Shown in pieces: positions 1 through 52,532 of a stretch of DNA of 64,000 nucleotides; the first letter of the stretch is position 1, and every line of letters begins with the position of its first letter. Source of the stretch: Moniliella sp. 'wahieum' (taxonomy: Eukaryota; Basidiomycota; Moniliellomycetes; Moniliellales; Moniliellaceae); contig RSEE01000082.1 of assembly GCA_003971905.1 (NCBI GenBank), positions 1-64,000 on the forward strand. Reading direction: 5' to 3'. The notes under the pieces were generated by a model. That model ran no database searches and was not told the origin of the DNA. It saw only the letters and a list, made by a program, of their open reading frames with translations. Both the position numbers and the translations under genes were made by a program.

Positions 1-23
1 CCTAACCCTAACCCTAACCCTAG
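1..23. repeat. Telomere repeat tract (CCCTAA)n
   Basis: Three and a half copies of CCCTAA run inward from base 1, followed by CCCTAGGGG and then unique subtelomeric sequence. The C-rich strand at the left end fits a left chromosome terminus with the common fungal TTAGGG repeat. The tract is short, so the assembly probably stops inside the telomere. Confidence 0.95.
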
Positions 24-340
24 GGGAGGGCCGAGGTAGATAGCGAGCTACCCGAAGGGGAGAGAGTTATGCCGAGGCGATAGCTCGCTAAAATCGTCCG
101 CTCTATGCAGCTATGCCCTCCGTTTTTCGATTGGACCACCCGTTCAAAAGTTACACCCCCCATCCCTAACCCTACCCACCCCGACCCAACCCACCCCACC
201 CTCCGATGGCCTCGACGATAGCTCGCTACGAAATCGTCCGCTCTATGCAGCATATGGCCTCCGTTTTTCGATTGGACCACCCGTTGAGGAGAAGTACACC
301 CCCCCATCCCTAACCCTACCCACCCCGACCCACCCACCCA
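24..340. repeat. Subtelomeric module A, two units
   Basis: Two units of about 150 bp. Each has the core gatagctcgct, an atcgtccgctc stretch, then catatggcctccgtttt, and ends in a degenerate telomere-like tail (ccctaaccctaccc followed by caccccgaccc). The same unit recurs five times at 10563-10862 and 11119-11530. Each copy therefore carries an internal telomere-like tract. Confidence 0.85.
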
Positions 341-468
341 CCACAAATAGAATCCGTACCAACTGCAGGCTGGAAATAAATAGAATTCGACACTAGTGTC
401 AAATTGCATTTGTGGCCGTCATATCATCGATCAGCCATACCAACTGTATCACTGAACATACGTCTAGG
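341..468. repeat. Subtelomeric module B, copy 1
   Basis: About 128 bp, nearly identical to 10863-10991. It includes accaactg, cgacactagtgtcaaattgc and gatcagccataccaactg, and ends in the junction motif ACATACGTCTAGG at 456-468. AT-richer than its surroundings. No coding potential is evident. Confidence 0.8.
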
Positions 469-2158
469 ACTTATTGTGGCTGCAATCGAGCTGGACGTGA
501 CAAAGGCGGCCTCGAAGAGCGACGTCGGGCGGCTCTTGCCAACGAACGTGTTGGGCGTTACCCACAGTTCGTTGCCGTTTGCAAAGCTTGCAAAACTAAA
601 CTAAGCATGAAGGACATGAAGCCCGTGCTTGCTCCACTCGTCTGGCATGGGTGGCTCCCCGTGCCAATCGAAGAAGGCAATCCTGTACTTAACTACCCGA
701 TCCAATCCCCCCCCGACCCCATTCCGCTGAGCTTGCAAACCCAAACAACCATGGTCCTCGTCCCTTAAACCAAGGTGGCCGCCATCGCCTAACCGCCACG
801 CGCCCGCATACCACGGTGCCCCGGCTGCCCTCGCCACTGCGTGTCGTTGTTGAGCGGCGGCCAGACGGCTTGCCTGACCGCTTCGTCCTCGTCGATACCG
901 ATGACGATGACGATGACGATGAGGTGGTGATGTTGGAAGGCTCGGGCCGCAATCCTGCCCCACCCCTTGTTCCCCGTCCGACAGAGCGGTTGCAAATTGC
1001 ATTCCATGCTCCCGTGCTGCTCCGACCCTTGTGGAGCGCGGGCCCGAAACGCGGGACGCCACTTTGCCGATCCAAGAGGCGGCGCTTGACTACGGTCTTG
1101 ATGACATGCCCCCGATTGAGGATGCACCAGCGGGAATGGAGGTGGTGCCCGAGACGGTACAAGACTATGGCCTTGACGACATGCCCCCGATTGAAGATGC
1201 ACCAGCGGGAATGGAGGTGGTGCCCGAGACGGTACAAGACTATGGCCTTGACGACATGCCACCGATCGAGGATGCACCAGCGGGATTGGATGCGGCACCC
1301 AGGGCGCGACAAGAAGCCAGGCCTGATACCGAGATGGTTCATGTGGCATCTCCCATGCCCGATGTGGTGGCGATGGAAGATATCATTGAGGCGCTTCAAG
1401 TATCTAGCATACAACGGGACGTGGTCCATGAGACACCCGACCTTGCCGATGTGGCGGAGGTAATGGAGGATGCTGTTGTGACCGCAGAGGAGGACCTGAA
1501 TCAAGAGGCTATCGAGCGTGTCCGGCCTTCGCCCGACGTTTCCATCCCCGCCCTCTAGTCCCGGTTGATGAGCTTGATACCACGCCACCCCGCGGCCCTG
1601 CTCAACACCTGCCGGAAGTGCAGCGGGAGATCACTGAGATCCAGCGGTGCGCGATCGAGCTGGTGCAATCTCGAGGGGCTCGCGGTGGTGGTTCGGTACC
1701 GGTGGGGACCGTGGTGCTGGTACCGGTGGGGACCAACCTACTACCGATCAGGGTGGATCCTCAACGGGCCAAAGCAGAACTCGTGCCCGTTCGCGTCGTC
1801 GGAAGGGCTTCCGTGGCCCCAGATACCGTTCCGCGTCAAACGGGGAGAGGCATCATATCTTCATCCAACCGCGTATGCCAACACCACTTTAGCTGCTTCT
1901 GCCGTATGGCGCTTGTATGGTGTGAGTTGGCGTACAGCCCTCGCTCTCCATGCAGAACCCCGTCCTATCTTGTACGAAGACGACATGATGAACGAAGTGG
2001 AAACGACGGGTCCCACACAGCGGCAGGTACGTGTGGACCGGGAAGAGGAAGAACCACTCATTTCCATGCGATGGAGGCTTCTGCCGACGAAGGCGGCGCC
2101 TTGTCAGCCTGACTTGCAAATATCTGATCGCGAAGCGTACAGATCTGGAATACTATGA
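412..2158 (+). CDS. Subtelomeric hypothetical protein, frame-broken
   Basis: I do not recognise the family. Several overlapping plus-strand frames read as one protein interrupted by frame changes. The N-terminal part (about 470-770) is basic and holds CKACKTKL followed by LVWHGWL, a possible C-x2-C metal site. A run of aspartates follows near 895-920. A segment at 1088-1312 has three perfect-length 25-residue repeats built on YGLDDMPPIEDAPAG, then an acidic stretch, a Gly/Arg-rich stretch near 1680-1850 (RARSRRRKG) and an acidic C-terminal part with REEEEPL. Start and stop are approximate. It sits directly inside the telomere modules and begins within module B, which fits a telomere-associated gene family. 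It could equally be a decayed gene. Confidence 0.4.
1088..1312 (+). repeat. 75-bp coding tandem repeat, three copies
   Basis: Copies begin at 1088, 1163 and 1238, an exact 75-bp period encoding 25 residues (core YGLDDMPPIEDAPAG). The period is a multiple of three and the changes between copies are few and partly synonymous (tacggtctt versus tatggcctt). This suggests the repeat is or was translated. Confidence 0.8.
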
Positions 2159-2199
2159 ATTGCCCGCGACTCACAACATTTAACACCATAGAATGCATT

Positions 2200-3800
2200 G
2201 CTAGTGTCTATGAGCGAACAAGCGTCGGCCGCACCGGTGGGCAGTGGCTGGGCAGACGGAATGACAAGCACCATGGCCTGCTTCGGCTTGGACGACCGGG
2301 GGTAGCGATGATCGAATCAATGGTGTGATGTTGATGACCGATGGCCGAAGCGAGAGTGGCAACGGCCGCGGCGTGCGTGCGAGGGAGGCGTGGGGCAGGG
2401 GGGGGGGGGGGTTAGGCAGGTGGAGATGAGAAAGCAGCCCGGCCAGGTGGGCAGTGGCTGGGCAGACGGCAGAGAAGAGAGAGGGTCAGTGGATGGCAGG
2501 GGCGTGGTGAGGCAACAGACCTTGGCATGGTGTGCTTGGACAAGGGCGAGGCGAGGGTGGGGATGGCCGAAGCGAGGGTGGGCTGGAGGCGTGCGGCAGG
2601 GGCGCGGGGGGGACGAGTGGGAGTGAGAAACAGGCCCGGTCGGGTGGGCAATGGCTGGACAGACGGCACAGAAGAGAGGGAGTCAGTGGAGGGGCGGGGC
2701 GTGGCAGACGCGGCGTGGCATGGCACTGAAGAGATGGGCCCACGGGGCATCCACCATGGTCTGCCTGCACATGCCCGCAGGGGGGGGGGGTAATGACCGA
2801 CGTGGGCGTGGCCAGGGCGGGGATGGGCGGGGGAGGGGAGCGCAGGGCGGGTGGGGCGGCGGGTGGGAATGAGAAGACACAGGCACAGGCAGGCGCATGG
2901 ACTGGGGACACAGAGCAGGGGGGTCAGTGTGTGGCCGGGGCGGATGGAAGAAGCACGGGAGACGAGAAGGCAGAGATTGGGGGGATGACGAGGCAACAGA
3001 CCTTGGCATGGTGCGTTTGGACAAGGGGGAGGCCAGAGTGGGGATGGCCGAAGCGAGGGTGGCGATGGTGACGGGGGGTGGGGGGTGGCGAGGGGGGCAG
3101 AGGGTGGACGGTAAACAGGACGGTGGGTGGGCGCGTCGGAAGGGGGAGCCGTGGGATGCTGCATGGTGCGCTTGGACAAGGGGGAGGCGAGGGTGGGGAT
3201 GGCGGGTGCGAGGGAGGGGGCGAGGGAGGGGGCGAGGCGTGCGATGGAGGGGGGGCGGGTGGGGACGCAGGTGGGAGTGGTGGGAGTGGGAAAGCAGGTG
3301 GGAGTGGGAAAGCAGGCTGCACGGGTGGGCAGTGGCTGGACAGACAGAAGGCACAGAAGAGATGGGGTCAGTGGAGGGCCGGGGCGGGGCAGACGAGGCG
3401 TGGCAAAGCACGGGAGAGGGAAAAAGAAGGCTGGGATTCAGGGGATGACGAGGCAACAGACCTTGGCATGGTGCGCTTGGACAAGGGGGAGGCGAGGGTG
3501 GCGACGGCCGACGCAAGGGTGGGGATGGGGGAGCGAGGGTGGGGATGGTGGGAGCGAGGTGGGGGCGAGGCGTGCGATGGGGGGGGCGGGGGGGGACGCA
3601 GGTGGGAGTGGGAACGAGGCGCGGACGGGTGGGCTGTGGCTGGACAGACAGACGACACAGACCAGAGAGAGTCAGTGTGGGGCAGACGGGGCGTGGCCAA
3701 AGCACGGGAGACGCGAAAAGGACGCGCTGATTCGGGGAATGACGAGGCAACAGACCTTGGGGCGCCAGGCCACGGCTCGGCCCAGGCGGCGGGTGGTGGG
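2200..3800. repeat. G-rich subtelomeric repeat mosaic (module D), main block
   Basis: Strongly G-rich plus strand made of shuffled pieces that recur irregularly. They are gtgggcagtggctggacag, a gtcagtggagggc/gcgtggcagacg piece, and gaggcaacagaccttgg followed by a catggtgcgcttggacaagg piece (copies near 2513, 2991, 3449, 3743). The remaining sequence is gcgagggtgggga-type minisatellite. Related blocks lie at 9366-10282 and 15873-16510. Long open frames on both strands here are composition artefacts. Confidence 0.75.
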
Positions 3801-4215
3801 CCAAAGCCAGCTGGGGCGATCGCCACCCAAGCCAACTCAGCGCACTGGTCAGCTCACCCATCCACCCACCCATCATCCGTCCGCTGCGTCCGTGCACACC
3901 CAATTACTATTCCCGTTTAACGCCGGCCGCGCGCCGCTCATCGATCATCGATCACGCGATCACGCCTCCTCCACCGCCGATCCGTCCGCCGCCCATCCCA
4001 TCCCAAATCCACCAGCCCCACCATCGCACCCACCCAACGCCACCCCGCCCTGCGCCGCCTGTGCGCCGCGCCCCGCACCCCGCACGGGTGCATCTCCCCA
4101 ACCACCCACACCCACACCTGCGCGCCACCCATGCCCCACTCCAAGCCCAACTGCAGGAGCACCGCCAGCATCAGCTCGGCCACGCTGCCGCACCGGCCTG
4201 CCATCGCCCCGCCTG
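3801..4215. other. Unannotated stretch between repeat D and the satellite
   Basis: C-rich sequence with proline-rich frames, and ATCGATCATCGATCAC near 3938-3956. No gene or RNA supported. Confidence 0.5.
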
Positions 4216-6390
4216 CACGTACAGGTACGTGTGCAGACCCCCATTCTGGGCCAATTTGCAACCGCAGCAGCTCCCCTGAACGATCTCACTCGGGAGAATA
4301 ATTTGCAACTGACTCGATTCAAATCTGCTCAGATTTCGCTCAGCACCAGCGGCAGTAAGCGCGACACTGCGCCGTTTCAACCTCCCTTGGCCTACTTGGA
4401 CGCGTGCAGACCTCAACTCTGGTGCACTCCGCAAGCGCCTCAGCTTTCCTGAAAGAGCTCAATCAGGAGTACATGCTACACGTGTTTATTCTACCATGGG
4501 ACCAGTTGGGAGGTGTGCGGGCGGCGGGTACATTCCTCAGTTTGAAGCTGCTCCGCCCTGGTGCGTGCGGTTTTGTACCCATCAAGGCCTCGGTCCTGCA
4601 CTCAGCCCGAAGCGGTTTGGCTCTCCTGGAAGAGCTCGGCCACGCGCACAAATGAAGTGCATCCAAGCTGGGATCCGACCAAAATTGGAGAAGTACGGCG
4701 GGAATGATCATTGGACGGCGACCATTTTGGCCAACTGTGCACCATCACGTAGCGATTTGGGCGTGTGTAGACCTCATCTCTGCATGGACCGGGACAACGT
4801 TAGCTCCCATGAAAGATCTCATCCAGGAGCACAGTGTGTGTATCTACAATCTCGGATCCAACGAAAATTGACAGAGCACGAACGGATGGAAAATGGAACT
4901 TCGTCGATATGGGGCGAATATGTCCCATGCCAAGACTACATGTGGGTGTGCAGACCTCAATTCTGCACGAATCTGGAAGCGGCTTGGCTTCCCAGCAAGA
5001 TCTTAGCCCCGTGCACCACCTGGGCGCACCAACTGGGGATCCGGCCCAAAAACAAATCTGAGCGCATGCAACATCGAGCGGACGCGGACCATATATAGTA
5101 CTAACGCATGCCCCGCCAACTTCATTGGGTGTGCAGACCTCAGTTCTGCACCAATCCCGGTGCGGTTTGGCTTGCCTGAAAGATCTCGGCAGCGGGATTG
5201 ATATGAGGGCAGTTGCTCTGGGATGCGGCCAGAAATAAATGCGGCGGTATGCAACGAGGAGCGGATGCACACCATATATTCAACGCTTGTATATCTGACC
5301 ATCCCCAAACTGGATTTGGGTGTACAGACCTCAGTTCTGCACCAATCCGGTGCGGTTTGGCTTGCCTGAAAGATCTCGGCAGCGGGATTGATATGAGGGC
5401 AGTTGCTCTGGGATGCGGCCAGAAATAAATGCGGCGGTATGCAACGAGGAGCGGATGCACACCATATATTCAACGCTTGTATATCTGACCATCCCCAAAC
5501 TGGATTTGGGTGTACAGACCTCAGTTCTGCACCAATCCCGGTGCGGTTTGGCTCCCCGAGTAGATCTCAGCAGCGAGTTGTTATGAGGGCAGTTGCTCTG
5601 GGATGCGGCCAGAAATAAATGCGGAGGTATGCAACGAGCAGCGGGTGCGCACCATATATTCAAAGCTTGTATATATCTGCCCATCCCCAAACTCATTTGG
5701 GTGTACAGACCTCAGTTCTGCACCAATCCCGGTGCGGTTTGGCTCCCGAGTAGATCTCAGCAGCGAGATTGTTATGAGGGCAGTTGCTCTTGGATGCGGC
5801 CAGAAATAAATGCGGCGGTATGCAACGAGGACCGGAAGCACACCATATATTCAACACTTGTATATATCTGACCATCCCCAAACTTCATTTGGGTGTACAG
5901 AGCTCAGTTCTGAACCAATCCCGGTGCGGTTTGGCTTGCCTGAAAGATCTCGGCCGGATGCACGTTCTGAGAGCAGCCGCGCTGTATGCGGCCAAAAATA
6001 AATGCGGCGGTATGCAACGAGGAGCGGATGCACACCGTATATTACAACTGCTATATAAGATGCACCATCATACAGCGTCATTTGGGTGTACAGAGCTCAG
6101 TTCTGAACCAATTCCGGTGCGGTTTGGCTTGCCTGAAAGATCTCGGCCGCGTGCACGATCTGAGTGCAGTTGCGCTCGCATCCGACGAAAAGTAGACGAT
6201 ACGGTATGCAACGAGCACAAGAAGTAGACCTGCATTCAACTCGGCGACCATCAGCTGCACCACCGCAAACATGCATTTGTGCGTCAAAGGCTCAATTCTG
6301 CACCGATTCGAGTGGGGTTTGTTTGCCCTGAAAGATGTGTGCGAGGAGGTCAATCTGAGTGTTTCCAACGTCGGATCTGGGCCAAAGGAG
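4216..6390. repeat. Satellite array, 12 units of about 173-193 bp
   Basis: A landmark GTGCAGACCTCA..TTCTGCACC recurs at 4231, 4404, about 4569, 4765, 4948, 5131, 5322, 5512, 5703, 5895, 6088 and 6281. Each unit continues with ggtgcggtttggctt and cctgaaagatctcg, then a gccagaaataaatgcgg piece and an accatatatt piece. Central units (5131-5900) are nearly identical, while units at both ends are strongly diverged. The period grows from about 173-183 bp at the telomere side to 190-193 bp. Short frames inside are repeated across units and are not genes. Confidence 0.88.
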
Positions 6391-7983
6391 CGCGGCCAGG
6401 ATGGAATGAGCATGGGAGCACGCCCCCAGATGGAGCTGATGTGCGCTGTACGTTGCAACCGCTGGGTGCTTGGCCCGCCGGGGTTGCACCTCGCAGCAGG
6501 GCACAGCTCACAGTCAGTACAGTCAGTGGCGTCCGCCCAGGCCAGCGTCCCTGGCAGCGTCGATCGGCGATCAGCGATCCTCGATCCACGGCCACTGCCG
6601 GCGCAGCACCGCCCTTGTCTGAGCATGCATCACGCAGCACGCCTGCCGGCCCGTGCCGCCCAGCCGCGCAACTGTCACATACCACATGCCACATGCCACA
6701 CAGCATGCATGCATGCATGCATGCATGCATGCATGCATGGCACATGTCCATGTCATGCATCATGTCAAATCGCGCATGCTGCATGCCCCATGCGCTGCAT
6801 CACCGCACCGCGGCACCTGTCACCTGTCACGCGTCACGCGCCACCAGCGCACCAGCCACCGCAGTACCACGCATGTCCAAGCCAGTCTCCAGTCACTCGT
6901 CACGCGTCACTTGTCAGTACCATGTCAGTACTCATTACATCATTGTATGTCATTCTATTGATGATTCGATGATCGACGTCCTCGGTCATCGGCGTGGCTC
7001 GGTGACTCGTCGGCGATGATCGATACGCCGCGGTCCAGTGCTCCGACCGCCGGGCCTCGGCCTCAGCGGGGGTGCAGCCACTGCACCTGTGTGGTAGTTC
7101 ACCTCAGCGCTGGTGGCTGGTGCCGCACCGGCTGTGCCTCAGTGCTGGTGCGGTCCTGCCTGCACTTGCATGTGCATGATGCATGACATGCATGATAGCG
7201 CCTCAAGCTTCGACGTCTTCAACGCCAGGTCACCGGTCAGGCCTCAGGCCGCAGGCGCCTCAGGGCAGCACCAATGCGAATCACAGGTCGCATTGGCACA
7301 CCAAGTGCACGGGCCATGCGGCTTGCACGGTGCCTGACATGGACTGGGGCCACAACGCCTGCCGCATCGCAGAGCACCGCCGCTACGCCCGCTGCCCCTT
7401 GTTTGCTGCCGTTCACAACGGCAACGCCGCCACGCTGCACACCCGCCAGATGCCAGTGTAGGAGAGCTCGGCCAGCGCTCAACGCTCAGCGGACGTGCCT
7501 GCAGGCCCAACTGCCCCGCGCACCACCTCGCACGCCCCCGCGCCCCCCGCCTCCTTCTCGTGGCCTGCTGGACTGATGCACTGATGGGACTGATGATGGG
7601 TCAACACCTGGTCAACCTGCGTCCGGGATGGGTGTCCGCCTGGCCATCTGCATGCGCCAGCACCATCCCCAGGCCTCTCGGACTCTCCACCCACCACGCG
7701 CTTGCACTGCAACTCATGATCCCACAACAGTAACGGCCAAGCTGATAGCGATGGTACACTATGGGTGCCGGGGTGTTGCATGAGCACGGGTGCGCCAGAG
7801 TCGTAGCAGATGTATGGCAGGTCGTCGGTACTCCCCCAGGAAGCGCCTCGGAGGTGGCTATCGAGGGGCTGCGCAGCAGCGGCCCGAGCCACCGCTTGTT
7901 CCATGGTTAGAATAGCTCAAGCGCACGTCGTAACTTCTAACTTGTCAACCAGCGAGAGGACCACCGGGCCGACGGCCTGGGTA
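6391..7983. other. Gene-free subtelomeric stretch
   Basis: No supported gene. It contains an ATGC tetramer run (6703-6739), the CATGCATGAT-type sequence near 7171-7197, a GGCCTCAGG-rich piece near 7235-7265, and repeated cacatgccacatg-type sequence near 6683-6700. Frames are short and overlap on both strands. Confidence 0.5.
6703..6739. repeat. (ATGC)n microsatellite
   Basis: Nine tandem copies of the self-complementary tetramer ATGC, so the whole tract can fold on itself or pair with either strand. Confidence 0.95.
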
Positions 7984-8122
7984 GAACACGTTGAACGTTG
8001 AACGTTGAACGTTGAACGTTGACCGTTGAGCTTGAGCTTGAGCCTCAGGGGCCGCAAGCTTGACCTCAAGGCTGAGCGGTTGAACGTTGAATATTGAATG
8101 TTGAACGTTGAACGTTGAAGAC
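7984..8122. repeat. Heptamer arrays AACGTTG and relatives
   Basis: At 7986-8020 the unit AACGTTG is repeated about five times and then shifts to GAGCTTG units. A second tract at 8078-8121 mixes AACGTTG with AATATTG. Most units are a 6-bp palindrome plus G. Confidence 0.9.
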
Positions 8123-8160
8123 GTAATCCCAATGCGGGGTCACCTTAACCGGCATATATG

Positions 8161-8478
8161 TCATGCCCCCCGGGGGTTGACCCTGTTCAAAAACAGTGTA
8201 GTTTGCGAATTCGCGCCGGCTTGCGCTGCAACCTAGATCAGTCGAAAGCTACGAAGCACGCGCGTTTCATAATGGGTAGAGGTCGTCCACGTTATCGAAA
8301 AAAAAATGGAGAGCGGGGGTCGAAGGCGGAACATGTGCATGCCCCCCCGGGGGTTGACCCTGTTCAAAACAGTGTATGTTTGCGAATTCGCGCCGGCTTG
8401 AGCTGCAACCTAGATCAGTCGAAAGCTACCAAGCACGCGGTTTCATAATGGGTAGAGGTCGTCCACGTTATCGATAAA
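8161..8478. repeat. Tandem duplication of an A-tailed unit
   Basis: Two copies (from 8161 and from 8339, offset about 178 bp) share catgccccc, gggggttgaccctgttcaaa, cgaattcgcgccggcttg, aacctagatcagtcgaaagc and a cataatgggtagaggtcg piece ending in ccacgttatcga. Each copy ends in a run of eight or more A residues. The copies differ by a few single-base changes. An A-tailed short unit could be a SINE-like insertion, but I find no convincing tRNA A/B boxes. No coding frame spans both copies. Confidence 0.7.
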
Positions 8479-8982
8479 AAAAAATACCAAGTGGGCGGAG
8501 AGTACCTCGGGTGACCCCCTCCTATGACACATTTTTGGGTGTGGTGCGCCAACCAGTGGTGGTGGTGGTGAGCCAATGGTACCGTTAGACTCGTACAGTG
8601 CCGCCGCACGCGCCCCGGCCATCAGAAACATCAAAAATAACAGTTTCAAAAACCCGCCCCTAAATCTGGACCGGTCGGACACCCTGTAAGGCTCGATGGA
8701 GGCTTGCCCTGGTGAGGTAGAGGCTTTAATGGCAGGCGGAGGAGGTGTGGTGTTGGTGTATGCCGCTGGTACCAAAATGACCATATCTCAGCCGTCTGTT
8801 GACCGTTCCAGCTCAAACTTGGCATGGAGTTAGCGGTAAGCAAGCACTGGTGAGGGGGTGCATCAGATCCATCACCATCCCCACCATAAGAGCGGGCGCG
8901 CATGCAGGTGTGCTAGCACCAAAACAAGCATTAATATGGACGATGCGCGTCATTTCAGGAGGGTGTGTATGTTGGATGAAGT

Positions 8983-9117
8983 GTTGGTGGTGGTGGAAGT
9001 CTTGCGGTGGTGGGAGAGGCTGGGAGTGGTGGAGGTGGCGGTGGTGGGCGGTGGCGGGGCGTGGCGGTGGCGGTGGCGGTGGTGGTGGTGGTGGTGGTGG
9101 TGGCGGTGGCGGCGCTG
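8983..9117. repeat. GGTGGC/GGTGGT minisatellite
   Basis: A low-complexity tract of GGTGGC, GGTGGT and GGCGGT triplet pairs. It gives poly-Gly, poly-Val and poly-Trp in the three frames and is not a gene. The flanking stretches 8479-8982 and 9118-9352 hold no supported gene. Confidence 0.9.
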
Positions 9118-9365
9118 GATTATTTGTTTGCGCGCGCCAACATCTGGTGGCCGCTGCCAGCGGCGCCTACAGCGTTGGTCAGCGGTAGGCGCTCACGGGT
9201 CACCCAGCCAGGCACCCCGTGAAAGGTCGGACGGCCAGCCAGAGGAACGATTTCTACCCAAACGCCTCCACGTAGACGGCATGGGGGCTACCCAGGTACT
9301 TTTTGTTCCTCTGGCACCCAATTCAGGAGCGGAATCTTCCCATCCATTCCTCAAAATATGTCTAG

Positions 9366-10282
9366 GTGTTGAAGACAGGGAGCAGAGGCGTGGAGATGGC
9401 GAGCACAGGCTTGGGGATGGCGAGCACAGGCTTGGTAACGAGGAGCAGGCTTGGGGATGACGAGTGCAGGCTTGGAGACGGTGGGCAGAAGGCAAGACAG
9501 AGTCGACACAAGCGTTGGAGCATGGCCGTAACGAGGGCCGAGGTGGGCGACACAACCGTGGCAATGCGTGGCCAAGAGCGACGTGGTGAGAGGGGCAAGA
9601 GTCTGGAGAAAGAGCGGGTCAGAATGAGGCAAGGTGGAATGAAATGGCATGGAGCGGCATGGGGAGCTGCACGGTCTGCTTGGACACGGGCGAGGCAAAG
9701 GGAGAGGGCCGAGACGAGGATCAAGATGGGCAAGCCGAACACCCAGAAGGCCAACTCAAGCGGCGGTGGTGCTGACGGCAGGCGAGCCAGTGACGACGGA
9801 CGGCCAGGGCGCCATGGTGAGGCCAGCAGGCATGCACAACGCCATGCACCATCGCTTGCACCATTCCCTGCTTTCGCTTGACCGACCCGACGGTGGCGAT
9901 GGCCGAATGAATGGCGGAGGAGATGGCGAGCGACTGGGGATGTGCGAGGGAAAGGGGGGGATTGCTGGGGCGTGCGTGGGAGGCAGGCACGCGGGTTAAA
10001 GAGAGCAAAGAAGGTGAGAAAGCGGGACGGGATGGCGGGCAGGGGCTGGACAGAAGGCACAGCAAAGTGGGTCAGTGCGGGCGTGGGGAGGGGCAGCCAA
10101 GGCGCGGGCAAGGCGCTGAGAGCGGCGGAAGGAGGCACAGATGGGAGGGGAAGCGAGGCAACACACCTTGGGGCGCGGGGAACGCTGCGAGGGAGGGGAG
10201 GATGGAGGCAAGAAGGCAGCGTACCAGCCCCATCGCCCCCCCATCAACATCTACGCCCCAACATGCACGCCCGCGCGCCCAT
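9366..10282. repeat. Subtelomeric repeat D, second block
   Basis: Begins directly after a junction motif (ATATGTCTAGG, ending 9366). It shares with 15873-16510 a long similar stretch containing atgcaccatcgcttgcacc, the cattccctgct and tcgcttgaccgac pieces, and a ggtggcgatggccgaatgaatggcgg piece. It shares with 2200-3800 the ctggacagaaggcacag and gaggcaacacaccttgg (10156) elements. No gene is supported despite open frames on both strands. Confidence 0.7.
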
Positions 10283-10420
10283 CCATTAGGTAAGGACAGC
10301 GCGGCGCCGCGGGTGGATACAGGCTTGCAATGTTCATTAGGTACCGGCCACGCGCGCAGCCGGTGGATACAGGGGTGCAATGTTCATTAGCTCAGCGCCA
10401 TGCTGGCCGGCGGGGATACA
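10283..10420. repeat. 50-bp tandem repeat, about 2.5 copies
   Basis: Units from 10283, 10334 and 10384 start with cattag and share ggtggatacagg and tgcaatgtt. Copy three is partial and diverged. Confidence 0.75.
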
Positions 10421-10453
10421 CACGTCGACGGGTGATGACTACGTCAGAGGTCA

Positions 10454-10542
10454 TAGGCCTCAGGACTATTGAGGTATCTCATACGGGCTAGCCCGTATGC
10501 GATGACCTCCGCCTCGATTGCTATGCGCCTCGGGACTATTGA
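10454..10542. repeat. Perfect 20-bp palindrome between direct repeats
   Basis: Positions 10480-10499 form a perfect inverted repeat (left arm CATACGGGCT, right arm its complement), flanked outward by gaggt and acctc. The segment lies between two near-identical direct repeats, gcctcRggactattga, at 10457-10472 and 10527-10542. Confidence 0.75.
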
Positions 10543-10562
10543 ATCTTTGAACATACGTCTAG

Positions 10563-10862
10563 GCCGAGGGTAGATAGCTCGCTACCCGAAGGGGAGGGAG
10601 TTATGCCGAGGCGATAGCTCGCTACGAAATCGTCCGCTCGTTGCAGCATATGGCCTCCGTTTTCAATCCGACGCACCGTTGAGAAGTTACACCCACCCAT
10701 CCCTAACCCTACCCACCCCGACCCAACACCCACCCTCCGATGGCCTCGACGATAGCTCGCTATAAAATCGTCCGCTCTATGCAGCATATGGCCTCCGTTT
10801 TTCGATCCGACGCACCGTTCAAAAGTTACCCACCCATCCCTAACCCTACCCAACCCAACCAC
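10563..10862. repeat. Subtelomeric module A, two internal units
   Basis: Begins right after junction motif ACATACGTCTAGG (10551-10563) with ccgagggtagatagc, matching the sequence right inside the telomere at about 32. Both units end in the ccctaaccctaccc telomere-like tail (near 10697 and 10836). Confidence 0.88.
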
Positions 10863-10991
10863 CCCACAAATAGGATCCGTACCAACTGTAGGCTGGAAAC
10901 AAATAGAAATCGACACTAGTGTCAAATTGCATTTGTGGCCGTCAAATAATCGATCAGCCATACCAACTGTATCACTGAACATACGTCTAGG
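10863..10991. repeat. Subtelomeric module B, copy 2
   Basis: Close copy of 341-468, including the cgacactagtgtcaaattgc core, and ending in ACATACGTCTAGG (10979-10991). The order A, A, B is the same as at the chromosome tip. Confidence 0.88.
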
Positions 10992-11119
10992 CCCGGCCCA
11001 GAGCTTGTACAATTTTCACCAACCGGGCTCGCTGGTTTTCACCTAGTGGTTTTTCAAACAAGGTGGGGGCCGATTTCAAATTGAAAATCACCAATTGATG
11101 CTGACAACATATGTCTAGG
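10992..11119. repeat. Subtelomeric module C, copy 1
   Basis: About 120 bp with agagcttgtacaattttcac, tcacctagtggttttt, aaggtgggggccgatttcaa and caccaattgatgctgacaac, ending in ACATATGTCTAGG (11107-11119). Other copies are at 11531-11654 and 15752-15872. Confidence 0.88.
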
Positions 11120-11530
11120 GAGTTATGCCGAGGCGATAGCTCGCTATAAAATCGTCCGCTCTATGCAGCATATGGCCTCCGTTTTCGATTGGGCCAACCG
11201 TTCAAAAGTTACACCCCCCATCCCTAACCCTACCCACCCCGACCCACAACACCCACCCTCCGATGGCCTCGACGATAGCTCGCTACGAAATCGTCCGCTC
11301 GTTGCAGCATATGGCCTCCGTTTCTCGATTGGACCACCCGTTCAAAAGTTACACCACCCATCCCTAACCCTACCCACCCCGACCCACCCCACCCACCCTC
11401 CGATGGCCTCGACGATAGCTCGCTACGAAATCGTCCGCTCGTTGCAGCATATGGCCTCCGTTTTTCCATTGGACCACCCGTTGACAAGTTACACCCCCCA
11501 TCCCTAACCCTACCCACCCCGACCCACCCC
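11120..11530. repeat. Subtelomeric module A, three units
   Basis: Three head-to-tail units with telomere-like tails near 11217, 11358 and 11498. The first is truncated at its left edge exactly at the junction motif (begins gagttatgccgagg). Confidence 0.88.
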
Positions 11531-11654
11531 ACCCAGAGCTTGTACGATTTTCACCAACCGGGCTCGCTTTTTTTCACCTAGTGGTTTTTGGGACAAGGTG
11601 GGTGCCGATTTCAAATTGAAAATCACCAATTGATGCTGACAACATATGTCTAGG
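11531..11654. repeat. Subtelomeric module C, copy 2
   Basis: Second copy of the 120-bp module, ending in ACATATGTCTAGG at 11642-11654. Confidence 0.88.
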
Positions 11655-12133
11655 CCAGCCCCGGCGTTCAACATTCAACGCTCACCGGTAACGCACGTGG
11701 ATGCGGTCGCCTGTCGGGCGTACCATCGTCACCAAACCGCGGCGTCCACAGCGCGTCGCATGTCACACACCCATTGTAACCCACCCTCACACGTACATGC
11801 AATGCCCCATCCCGGTCATGCCACCGCGGTTGCACGCTGGCTCCACCCCGCACGGAACATTCCCCGCCCCGGACCTGTCACATCCGTTGCCGCATGGGGC
11901 GTTAGCGTGTGTCACATGTCACATGGCACATGCGGTGTTAGCGGGCGGCACATGCGGGCTCATTAGTAAGTAGCCCCCATGCCGATCATTTCGAGCTGGC
12001 ACCGCCAGGACACTGGCCCCGCACCCAAACTGTCAGAGGTCACCAACCGTCAGGCACCTCCTTCGCCTCCGCACGTTTCAGACGGGCCAGCGTAAACTCT
12101 GCATTCCAGGACACAGGCCCCGCGCCCAAACTG
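11655..12133. other. Unannotated stretch with a duplicated 48-bp segment
   Basis: No gene supported. Two near-identical segments of about 48 bp at 12008-12056 and 12105-12156 share caggacac, ggccccgc and cccaaactgtcagaggtcac. The second overlaps the 3' end of the next gene. Repeated cacatgtcacatgg-type sequence lies near 11908-11935. Confidence 0.55.
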
Positions 12134-15045
12134 TCAGAGGTCACCATCTGTCAGGCGCCACATTTTCGCACTTACACACTGTGGTGCCTGACATTTTGCA
12201 ACCTCTGTAATTCTGAGACGAAAAACGTCATTTTCATAGAGAAAATCGACGGAGTTATGCAGTCCTTCACGTGAATATCTGACTAGGGCCCGGCTGCAGT
12301 AGCGCAACACATTGCCCAGCCGGTCCGCCACACGCATTGTGCCCACCACCAGGTGCTCCTTCTCGTACTCACGCACAAAACGCACCCGCCTCGTCTGCCT
12401 TCGCTGTCCAGTCGAGCGTCCCATCCGAGCGCACCGCCTCTGCATCGTTCAGCAGCCGCCGGTGCAGCGACGCGACCATCGACAGACGCAGGTTCCACAT
12501 CAGCCCCGCCATCGCCGGCGACACTTGGTTCGGCGCACGAAACAGCAGGTGGCCCACCGTGCCTGTCCCACCTCCCGGGCGTCGGACGCTGCTCTGGGCC
12601 CTCTCCCACCTCCTCCTCCTCCTCCTCTCCTTCCCCCTCCCCCTCCAAGCGATCGTCATCATTCGGCTGCTGGAGAATGTTGCCCACGACGGCGTGCCTA
12701 GTAACAGTGGGCGGACGCGCCTGCTGCGGCTCATCTGCCTCGGGCGGGTACCAGATGCCGAGACACTGGCTAAAGGCAAACAGCCACAGGGGCCTACATC
12801 CTCCAGGGTCGCTGCCCAAGGCCGTGTCGTGGTCATCTCGAGCCAGATCGCAAGGCGCTGCCAAAGCGGGTCGTAGTCAAGCTGCTGCGTCCCGGATTGT
12901 CAACCGGGGGCTCCCAGGGGTTCGGCGCAAGGACATCGGCGACAAAGCTTTCCAGGGCACTCTCGCCCACTGGCATGCCGTCATCCTCCAGCGCCTGGAT
13001 GAAGGCCTGCTCGTGCATCGACAAGACGCGACTGGCCAGGTCGGCCAGCGGGTGCTCCTCTGTGCTGCCCAGCGTCGCCCGCGCTCCGAGGAGCAACTGC
13101 ATAAAGACAAAGCAGTCGCCTAACAAGCCGGGTGTACTTGCGGATCGTGTCGGTACGGACCTGCAAGCCAAAGCGATGGAAGCACGAAAACTCGGACTCT
13201 TGCCCGGCTGGAGCAATGGCATGCTGGACGGGGTGGGAAAAGGCGAGAAGCGCCCGGGCCCAATGGTACAGGTTGTTATTGGCACGCTTGCGTTCGTGGT
13301 TCATGTTTGGCAGATACCGCATCTCGGCCAAGCGCATCAGCGGTACCCCGGCCATCAACTCGGACACATGCCACATGCGAGGGAAGGAGCCCATGAAATG
13401 CTCGCCATCCGCAATGGTCAGCGGATCCTCTCCCGGCATGTGAGGCATCAAGCTGGGCGAGCCCTCCTCCCGGTAAGGTCGGTATACGTCAGCAGAGGCC
13501 GCCGTGGCGGAGAGGCGTCGCGCAGGGGACGGGGATAAGGACGATCGGGCGCCGCGGCTGGTGGAGAGGCGTTGCGCTGCCGCCGCGGGGGGCAGGCGAG
13601 GGCGAGGGAGACTGCGTCGGCCGGCCTGCCTCGGTCGACTCTGCCTCGCTAGGGGATGCTTCCTGGGTGCGTGCTGGTCGCCGGGTGCGCGCTGGTACCC
13701 AGTCCCATTCCGATTCGGAGTCGCTGGCCTCATCCACGTCTCTCCGCTCGGTGTCGCTGGTATCCTCGTCACTCTCTCGGGATCTGTTGCTCGTTGTATC
13801 GTCATCCGTTCCTCGGTTGCGCACCGGGCTGGTTGGAGGGGGCGACTGGACAGCTGCGGCTGCATCAAGGCGCCTCGCAGCATCGATCGCGGCTGGTGGC
13901 GCATCGGGCCCAACAATGGCAACGGTAAGGTCGTACAAGACTCGTTGGGTGGGAAGCCAGAGCGGACGAGGGTGGTGGCCGGTAGTGCTGGCATGCTTGG
14001 CGTGCGGGGTGGTGGGTGCGTGCTACCTTCAAACATGTGCGGCACACCTCCTTGGGAGGGGAAATGACGATGCGGTCGACTGGCTCGGACAGGTACGTGC
14101 TAAAGTCCTTGGGCTCAGCAGAGCGGGGTACATGTGGGGAGGGAACATGCGAAAGGCGTTGCGGGCAGCCTTGGCGTTTGCGCGGTTGATCAAGGGATGT
14201 GTGCCGCTGACCCGGAAAGCTTTGACTCTGTTGCTTGAGATATGCGATTCGGGGACAAAGTATTTGCATACGTTGCAATACAAAAGGCGCAAGCTGGGGT
14301 GGTACTCGAGACCCAGTGGTTCAATCGCGAGACGGATGAGATGGAACGGATCATTGAAGATGGAGGCAGCGACCTGTCCTTTGAGTTGACTGCATTTAGA
14401 GGCGTGCTGACGCGCGTTCTGTGCGATTTGCGAAACAGGCGGAGCAGGCGGAGCATTGGTAGCCTGCGACAGGCTTGGTCAGGTTGGGAGCCGGTGGAAG
14501 AGAAAAGGGGGGGGAGAGGACGTACGTGGGCGTTTGGTGGATGGTCACCTTGTGCTTGGGCAACCCTCTTTGGACAAGAATGTGGGTGGTGATGGTGTCG
14601 GGGCGTGCGTGGGAGAAGGCAAGGGCGGTAGGGGAGATGAAAGCGGCGAGGTAGGTGCAGCAACAGGAGCTGGGGATGCTGGCTGCTCATCCAGAGGATC
14701 TTGTGTGCCCTCGAGGCGCGGGTCTTGCGTGGTTGCTGCAAGTGCTAGGATCTGGAGAGGCGTCGGGTTGGGAGGCGGAGTGGGGCTCGTGTCTGTGCCC
14801 GGACGAGGAGAGGCAGGGATGGTTGACAGCTGGGAGCAAGCCGCGTTGTTGGTGAGAGCTGGGCGGTCCATGCGGCGAGGCAACGGCGTGTCGGATGCTG
14901 CTCGCGCTGGAGGTGGTGCACCAGACGGGCCGGTCGAAGGTGTGAAGGGGCGATGTTGGCTGCCAGGCCTGGCCGTGCTGGGATGAGACGAAGCAGGTGT
15001 TCCGCAGTCAAACGTGGCAGCTGGCGTCGTAGGCAAGGCAGGCAT
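12134..15045 (-). CDS. Large subtelomeric protein, possibly N-terminal part of a telomere-linked helicase family
   Basis: Minus-strand frames join into one long protein of roughly 900-970 residues with several single-base frame breaks. The chosen start is the ATG at 15045 (MPALPTTPAATF). The first 170 residues are Pro/Thr/Ser-rich. Near 14290-14220 is YCNVCKYFV, then KEVCRTC near 14050, resembling two Cys-x2-Cys sites. An acidic Ser/Asp linker follows, then a long helical region: MWHVSELMAGVPLMRLAEMR, FHRFGLQVRTDTIRKYTRL, GDCFVFMQLLLGARATLG, then LWLFAFSQCLGIW and a C-terminal KEHLVVGTMRVADRLGNVLR stretch. The layout recalls the N-terminal half of fungal telomere-linked RecQ-like helicases, but no helicase motif (Walker A, DEAH) is seen before the stop. 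It is a truncated relative or an unrelated subtelomeric family. The family call is inference only. Confidence 0.45.
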
Positions 15046-15751
15046 GGTAACGCGAGGATGGTGGGACGTGAGGAGGAAGGGGCGCGTTGGGAGGCGTGGA
15101 AAGAGGAGGAAATGAAAGAATGCAGGCAGCGCGACGCGTGTGGAGTACAATTTATTACGCTGCCGCCGTGCGGGTGCATGCATCGACGGCTGATGCGCGT
15201 ACGAGAGGCGACACGACTTGGCGGCGTGTTGAGCGATGCGCGCTGCACCAAAATGGACACATCTCGGCCGTTTCTCACCGATTGGGCTGCAATTTGGTAT
15301 GCTGCTAGCCATCGCATGGGGCCAGCTATGGCAGGCGATGAAGTCAATACACGACGCTTGCAGCTGAGACCCAAGGCGCCGTGCACGCGGTGGTGCTACA
15401 GCCCAATGGCATCCTATTATGGCATCTACTCTACATGCAACGACCATACCTGGTTGGAAATGGGGGGGGTCGCAAAACAAGTGTGGAGTTCGTAGAGTGG
15501 AGATGGAGTGGTGGTGGCGGGAGTAAAGGTGGTAGTGGAGGTGGGGAGTGGGGGTGGAAGTGGGGGTGGGAGGGCTGGCGTGTGCGTTGGAGGCGGCGGC
15601 GGCGCGCGTGGGGTGTGCAGTGACAGTGGCGGTGGGCGGTGGCAGTGCTGGGGTAAGTGATGCGAGCAGCAGCACCTTTGATGGTCAAGCGTTGGTCAGC
15701 ACGGTCAGCGGTCAGCCGGTCACCGGCCAGGGCCTGTCGGCCCCGCCGGCC
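15046..15751. other. Upstream region of the 12134-15045 gene; G-rich tract
   Basis: No further gene seen. Plus strand 15490-15650 is a GTGGGGG/GGTGG-rich tract. Frames there are low complexity. The likely 5' flank of the minus-strand gene lies here. Confidence 0.45.
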
Positions 15752-15872
15752 GGCCAGAGCTTGTACAATTTTCACCAACGGGCTCGCGGTTTTCACCTAG
15801 TGGTTTTCAAACAAGGTGGGGGCCGATTTCAATTGAAAAATCACCAATTGATGCTGACAACATATGTCTAGG
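15752..15872. repeat. Subtelomeric module C, copy 3
   Basis: Third copy of module C, with small homopolymer-length differences from the other two, ending in ACATATGTCTAGG at 15860-15872. It is the innermost junction motif in the window. Confidence 0.88.
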
Positions 15873-16510
15873 GTGACAGCAGGTTCGCCAAGCGAGTGCA
15901 CATGGGCCGGCAGAGCGTCCAGACGGGACGGCATGGCACGCTGCACGGTATGCGTTGGCATGGCCGAGCCTGAAACGAAGATGGCCAAGACGAGGATCCG
16001 GATGGCCAAGCCAAGCGTCCAGACAACCAACTCAAGCGCTGCAGTGGTGGGGGCAGGCGAGGCTGTGACCATGGACGGCCAGGACGCCAGACCGAGGCCA
16101 GCGGGCACGCACAACACCATGCACCATCCCCTGCACCATTCCCTGCTTCCGCTTGACCGACCTGACGGTGGCGATGGTCGAATGAATGGCGGTGGTGGCC
16201 GAGTCAACGGTGGGGATGGCCGAGTCAGAGGCGGGGATGGCCTGGGCGTGCGTGGGAGGTGGGAGCGCGGCGCTGGGGAGGGTGGGGAGGCAGGTGGAGG
16301 GAAAGAGCCCCGGGGTGGTGGGCAGTGCTGCAGAGACAGAGCCTGGACAGAAGACATAGAAGCGAGAGGGTCAGTGGAGGGCCGGGGGTGTGGCAGATGA
16401 GGCGCGGGAAACGGAGGTGAAAAGGGGAGCTAAACGAGGCAACAGGCCTTGGGGCCCGGACAAAGCCAGGCGGATTGGGGTGTGGTGGCAGCAGAAAACC
16501 AACCAAATCC
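15873..16510. repeat. Subtelomeric repeat D, third block
   Basis: Shares a long stretch with 9640-10170 (the caacaccatgcaccatc and gacctgacggtggcgatgg pieces) and the cgaggcaac/ccttgg element at about 16433. No gene supported. Confidence 0.7.
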
Positions 16511-18088
16511 ATCGCCAGGCCAGCGCATATAGGCGCCGCTGGCTGATGAAACGTTTAAACTTTTAATTGCACGATGGATGCGTGGCCTGCGCCGTCACAT
16601 GCACGTCACATTGGCTCCGCCCGCCACCGATAGCTGATCTCGCTCCCATTACAATTTCTTCGTCTCAAGCGTCTGGCACTTTCCCTGTTTCTTCCACTTC
16701 GCATCATGTCCTCTGCTCTTGCTTCTTCACCCACGAACGATTGCTACACCCCTTGGCCTAGTCTCGATTCTGGTCCCTCGCCTTAGCCCCGACTGTGGCA
16801 GAGAAGCATTGCTTACAGACAGGGGCGGAAAGGGAAATAAGGCGATTGATAAGAAAGAAAGCGGGACAGGGAAGACCAGGGGGGTACGGTTGCCACAAGT
16901 GCAACCTAGAAAGACAAGGTAAAGGGGCACAAGGCGACTTTCATCACAAAGGAGGCATAGCCCAAGAGCTTCACCTTACTCCGCTGTGGTCCACACCACA
17001 GGTTCCGTACTAACTGTCTCACCGATCATCATATAGTTGAGCTCCTTCACACGTTTTGAGTGTTTATTCACGGGTTAGGGCCTCTCTGGCCCGGTCGTGG
17101 CCTGCGTCGCTCTTCCATCCGGTTCGCTAGGTGCCAAGACTACCGGACACCATGTTGTGCCGCCGCAGGTGGCTCGTGTGCTCTGGCCAACGTCCTTTCA
17201 CTCCCTCCTCAGGCCCAGGAGTCCCGTTGCTTGTTCGCTTCTGTTTTAGTCCGTTTGGTCCGCAGCCTACTAGTGTGGAGACCATACGAGAGCTGAATCA
17301 AACTCAATTCTCAATCAGGAAGGACGATTACTAGTACTTTACAGGGACATGGGCATCTACTGCGTAACTGCATAGTAAGTACTGGATGACTCACACACGA
17401 AGCAGATGATGTCAGTGGGAGTGTGGAGGTGGCTGTCCCTCTGAACCGTTTGGTTATTAGCCTTCATAGCTTCATGTAAAGCGTGTCGTGGCTCTTCTGT
17501 GATGCATCAGCAGCCTGCACCGAGGCCCCCGTCAATCTTCATAGCTTCATCCCCCGCTCACAAGGCCCTAGATCTCCACAGTTGCAGTATACCACTTCGG
17601 TCCCGCAGTCTTCGGGAGGTAGGTGAGTAATTAAGGTTCAACCACCCCACCGCCCACTGAACGCCCAATATAGCTGCGCTGCGGAACGCTTAGACAACAA
17701 ACGGGGTAGCGACGCAACCTGGTGCACTAAAACGTCGCTCGGCCTCGGTTGTCCCGATGGGTTACGCCACCATACTTCCCTCCGCACCGCCCGCGTGTCC
17801 CCGCAAGGACATGACATGGACAGACGGGTTGGCCACAACTGAGGCCAAATAGGGTCGAAGAGCATGTATAGCCAGAATCCCATCGCTCGGTTCTGTGGAC
17901 ATGAGCGTGCGGCCGCCAACAGCCTAAACGAGCCTCGGGGATCCGTGCCCTCCTGCAGGTCAGCACATCCACCCGGATACTCCGGCGTCCTCTTCCTGCT
18001 TTCTCACCCATGTGGAGCAGAGCGGAGGCGGGCATACCCACACCACCCGATCATCGGCCCTGGGCGTCGCTCCACATGCTCTCGCCAG
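16511..18088. other. Transition from subtelomere to gene-dense arm
   Basis: No gene I can support in about 1.6 kb. Less repetitive and AT-richer than sequence to its left. The direct repeat cttcatagcttcat occurs near 17462 and 17538. A minus-strand frame at 17640-17920 and a plus-strand frame at 16795-17013 are open but resemble nothing known to me. Confidence 0.4.
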
Positions 18089-51559: not shown

Positions 51560-52532
51560 ATGCACGCCTGGCGACTTGATGGTATGTCCGACTCCCTGCT
51601 CTCTGCTCTCTGCCCTGCCCTGACACTCCCCTCCCCCCCGCAGCCGTCCGCGAGGACGTCAAGGCCATCCTCAAGAAGCCTGGCTACGACGACGGCTCCA
51701 TTGGCCCCGTCCTGGTCCGTCTTGCCTGGCACGCGCGCCGGCACATACGACAAGGAGACCGACACGGGTGGCTCCAACGGTGCCGGTATGCGCTACACGG
51801 CCGAAGGCGCGGACCCAGCCAACAATGGGCTGGAGAATGCGCGTCTGTTCCTCGAGCCGCTGAAGCAGAAGCACTCGTGGATCACGTATGCTGATCTGTG
51901 GACCTTGGCTGGCGCAACGGCCATTGAGGCACTGGGTGGCCCGCACATTCCTTGGAAACCGGGTCGGTCGGATTTCTCGACGACAGCCTGTTGCCCCCAG
52001 GGTCGGCTGCCCGATGCGTCGCAAGGCCAGGACCACTTGCGCGCCATCTTTTACCGCATGGGTTTCAACGACCAGGAAATCGTGGCCTTGTCTGGAGCGC
52101 ATGCGTTGGGCCGCTGCCACGCGAACCGGTCTGGGTTTGATGGTCCGTGGGTGGTCAACCCGACTCGCTTCTCGAATCAGTTTACAAGTTGCTGCTCAAG
52201 CTCAAGTGGCACCCCAAGGACTGGCAAGGCAAGCGTAAAGATGCGCCGTTCCAGTGGGCTGCCAAGGCCCCGGTGCCGACGATGACGATGAGGAGCTGAT
52301 GATGTTGCCGACCGACATGAGTTTGGCCAAGGACCCTTCGTTCCGCGTATGGGTGGAGAAGTACGCCGAGGACAAGGACTTGTTCTTTAAGGACTTTGCC
52401 GATGTGTTTAGCAGGCTGCTTGAACTGGGTGTCTACCGTGGACCGGACGGCATTGCCACCTTTGACAACTTGATCAAGGCCAAGAAGTATCAGAGCGCGC
52501 CGCCCAAGAGCTACCCTGGTCCTAAGCTCTGA
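51560..52532 (+). CDS. CCP1: Cytochrome c peroxidase
   Basis: Heme peroxidase reducing H2O2 with electrons from cytochrome c. Exon 1 is only 22 nt (51560-51581, MHAWRLD), intron 51582-51643 (gtatgt...cgcag), exon 2 from 51644: [36 protein letters not shown] (distal Arg, Trp, His), [60 protein letters not shown] followed by GRCH (proximal His in GAHALGRCH), [16 protein letters not shown] with the Trp diagnostic of cytochrome c peroxidases, [20 protein letters not shown] and [17 protein letters not shown] (the Asp hydrogen-bonding the proximal His). Stop at 52532. No targeting presequence is visible, so a cytosolic form or an unseen upstream exon is possible. Frame breaks occur near 51729, 51975 and 52185-52270. 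Confidence 0.92.

Follow-up and report, generated by a model that had tools for sequence, protein, structure and literature searches.

Units sharing a CTAG(G) 3′ terminus appear to form a head-to-tail chain at a chromosome end of Moniliella sp. 'wahieum'

The window analyzed here comprises the first 64 kb of a 308 kb contig (RSEE01000082.1, C82 below) in the genome assembly of Moniliella sp. 'wahieum' (69.5 Mb, 223 contigs), and our subject is a junction motif of 13 letters, ACATAYGTCTAGG, which recurs in its subtelomere. Judging from the sequence, this subtelomere is a head-to-tail chain of 5′-truncated units with variable 5′ starts and a fixed 3′ end of the form ...ATAYGTCTAGG, more generally ...CTAG(G), and the motif appears to be the 3′ terminus shared by several unlike tail families, not a free breakage site. 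The units share their 3′ end, lie in one orientation and are confined to chromosome ends, start at variable 5′ positions, occur in places as tandem short copies, show a G and a short overlap at the joins, and carry the telomere on the 5′ end. The shared fixed 3′ end, single orientation, variable 5′ starts, terminal location and short join overlap suggest that the window end is a chain of non-autonomous elements which reverse transcription placed on chromosome ends that had lost their cap, with telomerase present, a reading which we regard as fairly probable.

A pattern search of the window revealed six exact copies of ACATAYGTCTAGG, ending at 468, 10563, 10991, 11119, 11654 and 15872, and one variant with a single mismatch ending at 9366, confirming all seven junction coordinates of the initial annotation. 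With up to two mismatches allowed, eight matches were obtained in the window against 1.34 expected, the eighth lying at 51743 with two mismatches, and none of 100 shuffles reached eight. The annotation had described the motif's core and CTAG as palindromic; ACATATGT is a palindrome and ACATACGT is not. It had also assigned the sequence before the motif to a few families, namely modules B and C, where four tail families were actually observed: B (468 and 10991), F (9366), X (10563) and C (11119, 11654 and 15872).

In the whole genome, 53 exact copies of ACATAYGTCTAGG and no copy of the reversed pattern were detected. All but one of these (52/53) are no more than 16 kb from a contig end, spread over 36 contig ends, and in 52 of 52 the CTAG faces inward; in the examined end loci the core was oriented inward 49 times and outward never. 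The motif is thus not frequent away from chromosome ends, an outcome which the initial annotation had named as one that would count against it. The lone internal copy (C18:486463, 325 kb from an end) was set aside as a chance match, as the 9.9 kb around it contain no tail-family homology to other examined loci, and it was left out of the right-flank tally and the step lengths given below. Confinement to chromosome ends in one orientation, with the 3′ end inward, is what is expected of an end-added telomeric retroelement of the HeT-A kind.

Alignment of the sequences before the core revealed the clusters B (with a relative, B′), C, E, F, G and X, together with single types in L022 (the C18 copy), L031 and L053. 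The tail families are unlike upstream and have only the last 10–13 bases in common, while the upstream length shared among relatives of one tail ranges from 35 bases up to the comparison limit of 700 bases. Since the search pattern itself fixes the terminal bases of the gathered tails, a motif-independent, all-against-all block comparison of the end loci was also made. Outside module A, 61 of 309 right ends of homologous blocks fell at CTAG, as compared with 309 of 13,500 random positions (scored with a slightly narrower margin); left block ends were also enriched (53/350), which would follow from their adjoining the tail of the next unit outward. Two tails lacking the 13-mer, J (GTGAATATCTGACTAG) and K (CCAATATAAGRCTAG), also emerged from the block comparison, both ending in CTAG. 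J has 19 genome copies and K has 11, of which 17 and 10, respectively, lie within 15 kb of a contig end; all placed copies point inward, those without placement being on C104 (its J copy), C202 and C203. In the examined loci J was found eight times inward and K six times inward, with no outward copy of either. Head-to-tail arrays whose members keep a fixed 3′ end but are truncated variably at the 5′ side are again the pattern of an end-added telomeric retroelement.

Tails B, X, E and C also contain an inner CTAG centred in a palindrome (ACACTAGTGT, GGGCTAGCCC, ACATCTAGATGT and CACCTAGTGG), for example at window 10914–10926 and 10484–10493, and a join at 3152 of L030 coincides with such an inner palindromic CTAG.

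The chain in the window, with the comparison on which each assignment rests, reads from the tip inward as follows.

1–22, forward strand: telomere repeats (CCCTAA) directly on the 5′ end of module A (TAGGGGAGGGCCGAGG), from the sequence, with the same join at 8 further contig ends.
23–468, forward strand: outermost unit, composed of a module A whose 5′ end reads GGGGAGGGCC and which holds two 140-base units with CCCTAACCCTA, followed by tail B with the terminus ACATACGTCTAGG, from sequence and tail clustering.
469–9366, forward strand: interval from tail B to tail F, the latter at about 9215–9366, from locus comparison, which may be one element or more.
9367–10563, forward strand: unit D...X, with tail X, from locus comparison.
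10564–10991, forward strand: unit A+B, its module A starting a few bases short of the full 5′ end, from tail comparison.
10992–11119, forward strand: 128-base unit with tail C, shorter than its relatives in L024, L025 and L028, from tail comparison.
11120–11654, forward strand: unit of 5′-clipped module A plus tail C, from locus comparison.
11655–12287, forward strand: unit J, 5′-clipped relative to L024, L028 and L040, ending in GAATATCTGACTAGG without the 13-mer, from block comparison.
12288–15872, forward strand: stretch ending in tail C, from locus comparison.
15873–16597, forward strand: D-type repeat behind the last tail C, from locus comparison, its inner limit provisional.

Along its whole length the outermost unit shows 92% identity with the C45 tip (L026). 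Window 6739–8689 recurs in L024, L025 and L028 directly behind a C tail, and a shorter copy of D...X, starting inside the unit, follows a B tail in L033 (4770–5456). Unit J ends CTAG|G at 12286 and forms an eighth window junction, without the 13-mer; the DNA after 11654, which had been called unique, is a copy of this element, longer in L024, L028 and L040. The sequence after a tail is often the start of the next tailed unit, as with D...X and the clipped J. Repeat D and module A, which the initial annotation had listed among the right-hand neighbours, are where further tailed units begin. In L030, L040, L066 and L072, short copies of B, B′, C or F stand in tandem, and 9 of the 33 tail-to-tail steps in the counted loci (L022 left out, as well as L025 and L028, near-duplicates of L024) are under 150 bases, the shortest being 38.

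CCCTAA is the telomere repeat of this genome, as seen in contig-tip sequence and a genome pattern search. Sixteen of 28 inspected contig ends, 10 of which had been picked for holding telomere repeats, begin with such repeats, and in 9 of the 16 these lie directly on (TA)GGGGAGGGCCGAGG in three registers, with one G fewer in L039. Three registers on one sequence fit separate telomere additions to one element 5′ end. The claim that the telomere at the tip passes directly into TAGGGGAGGGCC was borne out, and the join was seen again at other contig ends. Module A carries CCCTAACCCTA in 28 of its 35 long units. A telomerase RNA-binding domain was detected at two near-identical places, C1:727603 and C25:114883 (L077 and L078), the C25 copy with a stop in the matched frame; the two copies may reflect haplotypes, a duplication or an assembly error. 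A control pattern for the telomere search, the reversed unit as an AATCCC repeat, gave 58 genome matches (44 forward and 14 reverse) as compared with 14 for the telomere pattern.

For the joins, 84 tail sites from 38 loci were gathered, with 65 distinct right flanks; a single constant right-hand neighbour, the second outcome that would have told against the initial annotation, was thus not found. The first flank base is G in 58 of the 65 distinct flanks, A in five and T in two. A longer relative was available for 37 sites, 27 of them non-duplicate, and 25 were scored after dropping one mis-registered join and one that was the same join in a near-identical end. In the longer relative, a G stands just before the join in 24 of the 25 (0.30 by base composition), and the next base matches as well in 22, the scored joins not all being independent events. 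The right partner thus supplies about G|G, so that the outward strand would have a 3′ end in C or CC that could anneal to a template with the terminus ...CUAGG. In 13 of 24 joins (the three L040 joins being compared without the outermost 2.2 kb of that contig), no match to the outer flank of the relative was found on the telomeric side, which may favour end addition over insertion.

We infer an RNA intermediate, a reverse transcriptase and priming by eroded ends, in the following order of events. A chromosome end would lose its telomere and erode into non-telomeric DNA; the eroded 3′ strand, ending in C or CC, would then anneal to the G(G) that closes an element RNA (...CUAGG); a reverse transcriptase would copy the RNA outward, often halting early and leaving a 5′-truncated copy; and telomerase would cap the new end. 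Repeated rounds would stack the units, the oldest innermost, and ectopic recombination would then spread whole ends. The initial annotation had offered healed ends, elements with a fixed 3′ end and a preferred breakage point; the first two fit best together, given the inward tails, the variable 5′ starts and a join structure resembling addition to an eroded end, while the last is less likely.

Several results weigh against end addition by reverse transcription. No reverse transcriptase was tied to the tails: of 71 genome matches in an RVT_1 search, the only one inside 20 end loci is a chromovirus, though the other ends may hold one; no Penelope reverse transcriptase was identified by this search either, which used no Penelope-specific profile. 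Away from CTAG lie 248 of the 309 block right ends, so recombination or alignment breaks would explain many borders. The looser pattern ATACATCTAG was found three times inward and six times outward in the examined loci, and the general pattern A[CT]ATA[CT]N0-4CTAG 40 times inward and twice outward. When seven tails were folded as RNA, four had z below −2 and three folded no better than shuffles, with no structure common to all seven. For 11 of the 24 joins, DNA on the telomeric side did give some repeat-family match to the relative's flank; the strongest, in L040 at 1729, is an outer unit with a similar body. Three right boundaries are each used by two tails (B/B′, B/C and J/K), which would suit a break hot spot, or a reverse transcriptase stop with template jump. 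Finally, contigs have entire ends in common: no difference separates L025 from L028 in the 700-base tail regions compared, with L024 at about 98%, and C135 and C136 show the same motif spacing.

The doubly used boundaries, the CTAG common to all tails and the short overlaps at the joins would also be accounted for by an enzyme cutting CTAG|G, after which microhomology end joining would attach tip fragments with that end to broken chromosomes and DNA modules would be exchanged without RNA. We consider this unlikely. Ahead of their CTAG, J and K do not match the 13-mer, the very short tailed copies found in chains (38–71 bases) would require cutting many times over, and a cut would mark both sides, yet left block ends are not more often at CTAG than right ones. 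An element-independent break site is also made less likely by the location of the conserved bases in the left partner, the right partner sharing only about G or GG.

Only marginally smaller is the chance that break-induced replication or unequal subtelomere recombination built the mosaic, with the motif a relic at module borders. The shared whole ends speak for such recombination, but under it the constant terminus at which unlike families begin would have no explanation, and an overlap of 1–4 bases cannot direct invasion to CTAGG.

A comparably small probability is given to a variant of reverse-transcribed end addition, in which a pool of unlike non-coding RNAs with a shared CUAGG 3′ end would provide patch templates for telomere-less ends in C or CC, copied by some reverse transcriptase, possibly telomerase. 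This might be a back-up healing route in a telomerase-positive organism, rebuilding a cappable end on which telomerase can then resume, a suggestion that draws on the frequency of CCCTAACCCTA in the long units of module A.

It is more doubtful that the units belong to the MoTeR/FoTeR kind of telomere-repeat-targeted element, with the inner telomere repeats lost at a later time. The orientation, 5′ end tipward, and the telomere-linked helicases nearby are the same in both, and module A here contains tandem repeats; however, none of the 84 right flanks starts with a telomere array, and one, in L039 at 629, starts with a single CTAACCC. ATAYGTCTAACCC occurs only twice in the genome, 638 kb and 64 kb from contig starts, and its copies are not inward-oriented for a left or a right end unless the start is the nearest end. 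Short telomere-like pieces were observed near the joins at L039:629 and L072:155 (CTAACCCTA and GGTTAGGG).

Least probable of all are Helitron-like elements confined to subtelomeres. Helitrons have a 3′ CTRR end and insert between A and T; CTAG fits CTRR, an end present in all gathered tails (by the search pattern) and in those found motif-free, and a fixed 3′ end accompanies unlike interiors, but a G precedes 24 of the 25 joins in relatives, T is rare as the first flank base, the relative's outer flank was not found in 13 of 24, and Helitron_like_N (PF14214) has only three genome matches (C15, C39 and C69), none in the examined end loci.

Reverse-transcribed end addition can be compared with several known systems. 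HeT-A, TART and TAHRE of Drosophila form head-to-tail arrays only at chromosome ends, in one direction with the 3′ end centromere-ward, and HeT-A is non-autonomous (PMC5537684). The arrays here are likewise end-confined, head-to-tail and unidirectional with the 3′ end inward; the Drosophila elements, however, finish in poly(A) at the 3′ side and take the place of telomerase, whereas here CTAG(G), telomerase with telomere repeats and many very short units are found. GilT, GilM and GilD of Giardia, located between subtelomere and telomere repeats, resemble the present units in position, head-to-tail order, single direction and 5′ truncations, but are described as non-long-terminal-repeat retrotransposons, while no reverse transcriptase is tied to the units here (PMC5537684). 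Endonuclease-deficient Penelope-like elements, reported also from some fungi, prime on exposed chromosome 3′ ends, after which their truncated 5′ end receives telomere repeats (PMC3846280, PMC5537684); the telomere on the element 5′ end and the proposed end priming are alike here, though Athena elements have short telomere repeats at the 3′ end, where the present flanks start with no array (0/84). Finally, the fungal MoTeR (PMC7367193) and FoTeR (PMC12857005) elements are head-to-tail with the 5′ end tipward, include the non-autonomous MoTeR2 and, in FoTeR, have helicases nearby, but they differ in the telomere repeats after their 3′ ends and in a reverse transcriptase with a restriction-like endonuclease, the units here having neither an inner array nor a tied reverse transcriptase. 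Searches of the openly accessible literature listed known telomeric retroelements, but among these listings none described short end-added units that terminate in CTAGG. If the proposed reading is true, the ends of a genome with telomerase are also built from many short end-added units, mostly non-coding and with one terminal code, joining two known modes of chromosome-end maintenance in one organism, and subtelomere mosaicism would be a readable record of past end losses. As the joins are plain in long reads, the frequency of retroelement healing versus telomerase-only healing becomes testable.

RecQ-like helicase open reading frames (ORFs) were located near the ends of C87 (L036:4318–6286), C75, C112, C204, C175, C64, C37 and C45, all transcribed tipward, opposite to the tails. 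There is a resemblance to the Y′ elements of yeast, subtelomeric units with a helicase gene that spread between ends but are not known to have a fixed CTAGG end. Window 12286–14389 and 14692–15312 match DNA beside the minus-strand ORFs of C87 (L036/L037), and the helicase domain itself was not seen in window 12288–15872. A protein search with the helicase ORF scored 7997 candidates, none at E ≤ 0.001. Pfam on five different window ORFs gave one weak, sub-cut-off Ferritin_2 match only, and Rfam on the first 20 kb of the window gave five matches, all to microRNA families far below the cut-offs, at a GCAT repeat. Within the B-to-F stretch, window 5118–6336 is a 190-base tandem repeat of about 5.4 copies.

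An R2-like reverse transcriptase near the ends of C2, C33 and C158 was considered as a partner of the tails and dropped, since it adjoins 28S ribosomal RNA sequence and no CTAG site in the stretches read (C2:6400–10400 and C158:1–9000; L055–L058) bears a tail. By eye, it has a CCHC motif and a restriction-like C-terminus, and it is present near contig ends, also on C33 and C222, and elsewhere. On C158 it forms a tandem array with a period of about 4.2 kb, including a 160-base piece of 28S, directly behind telomere repeats.

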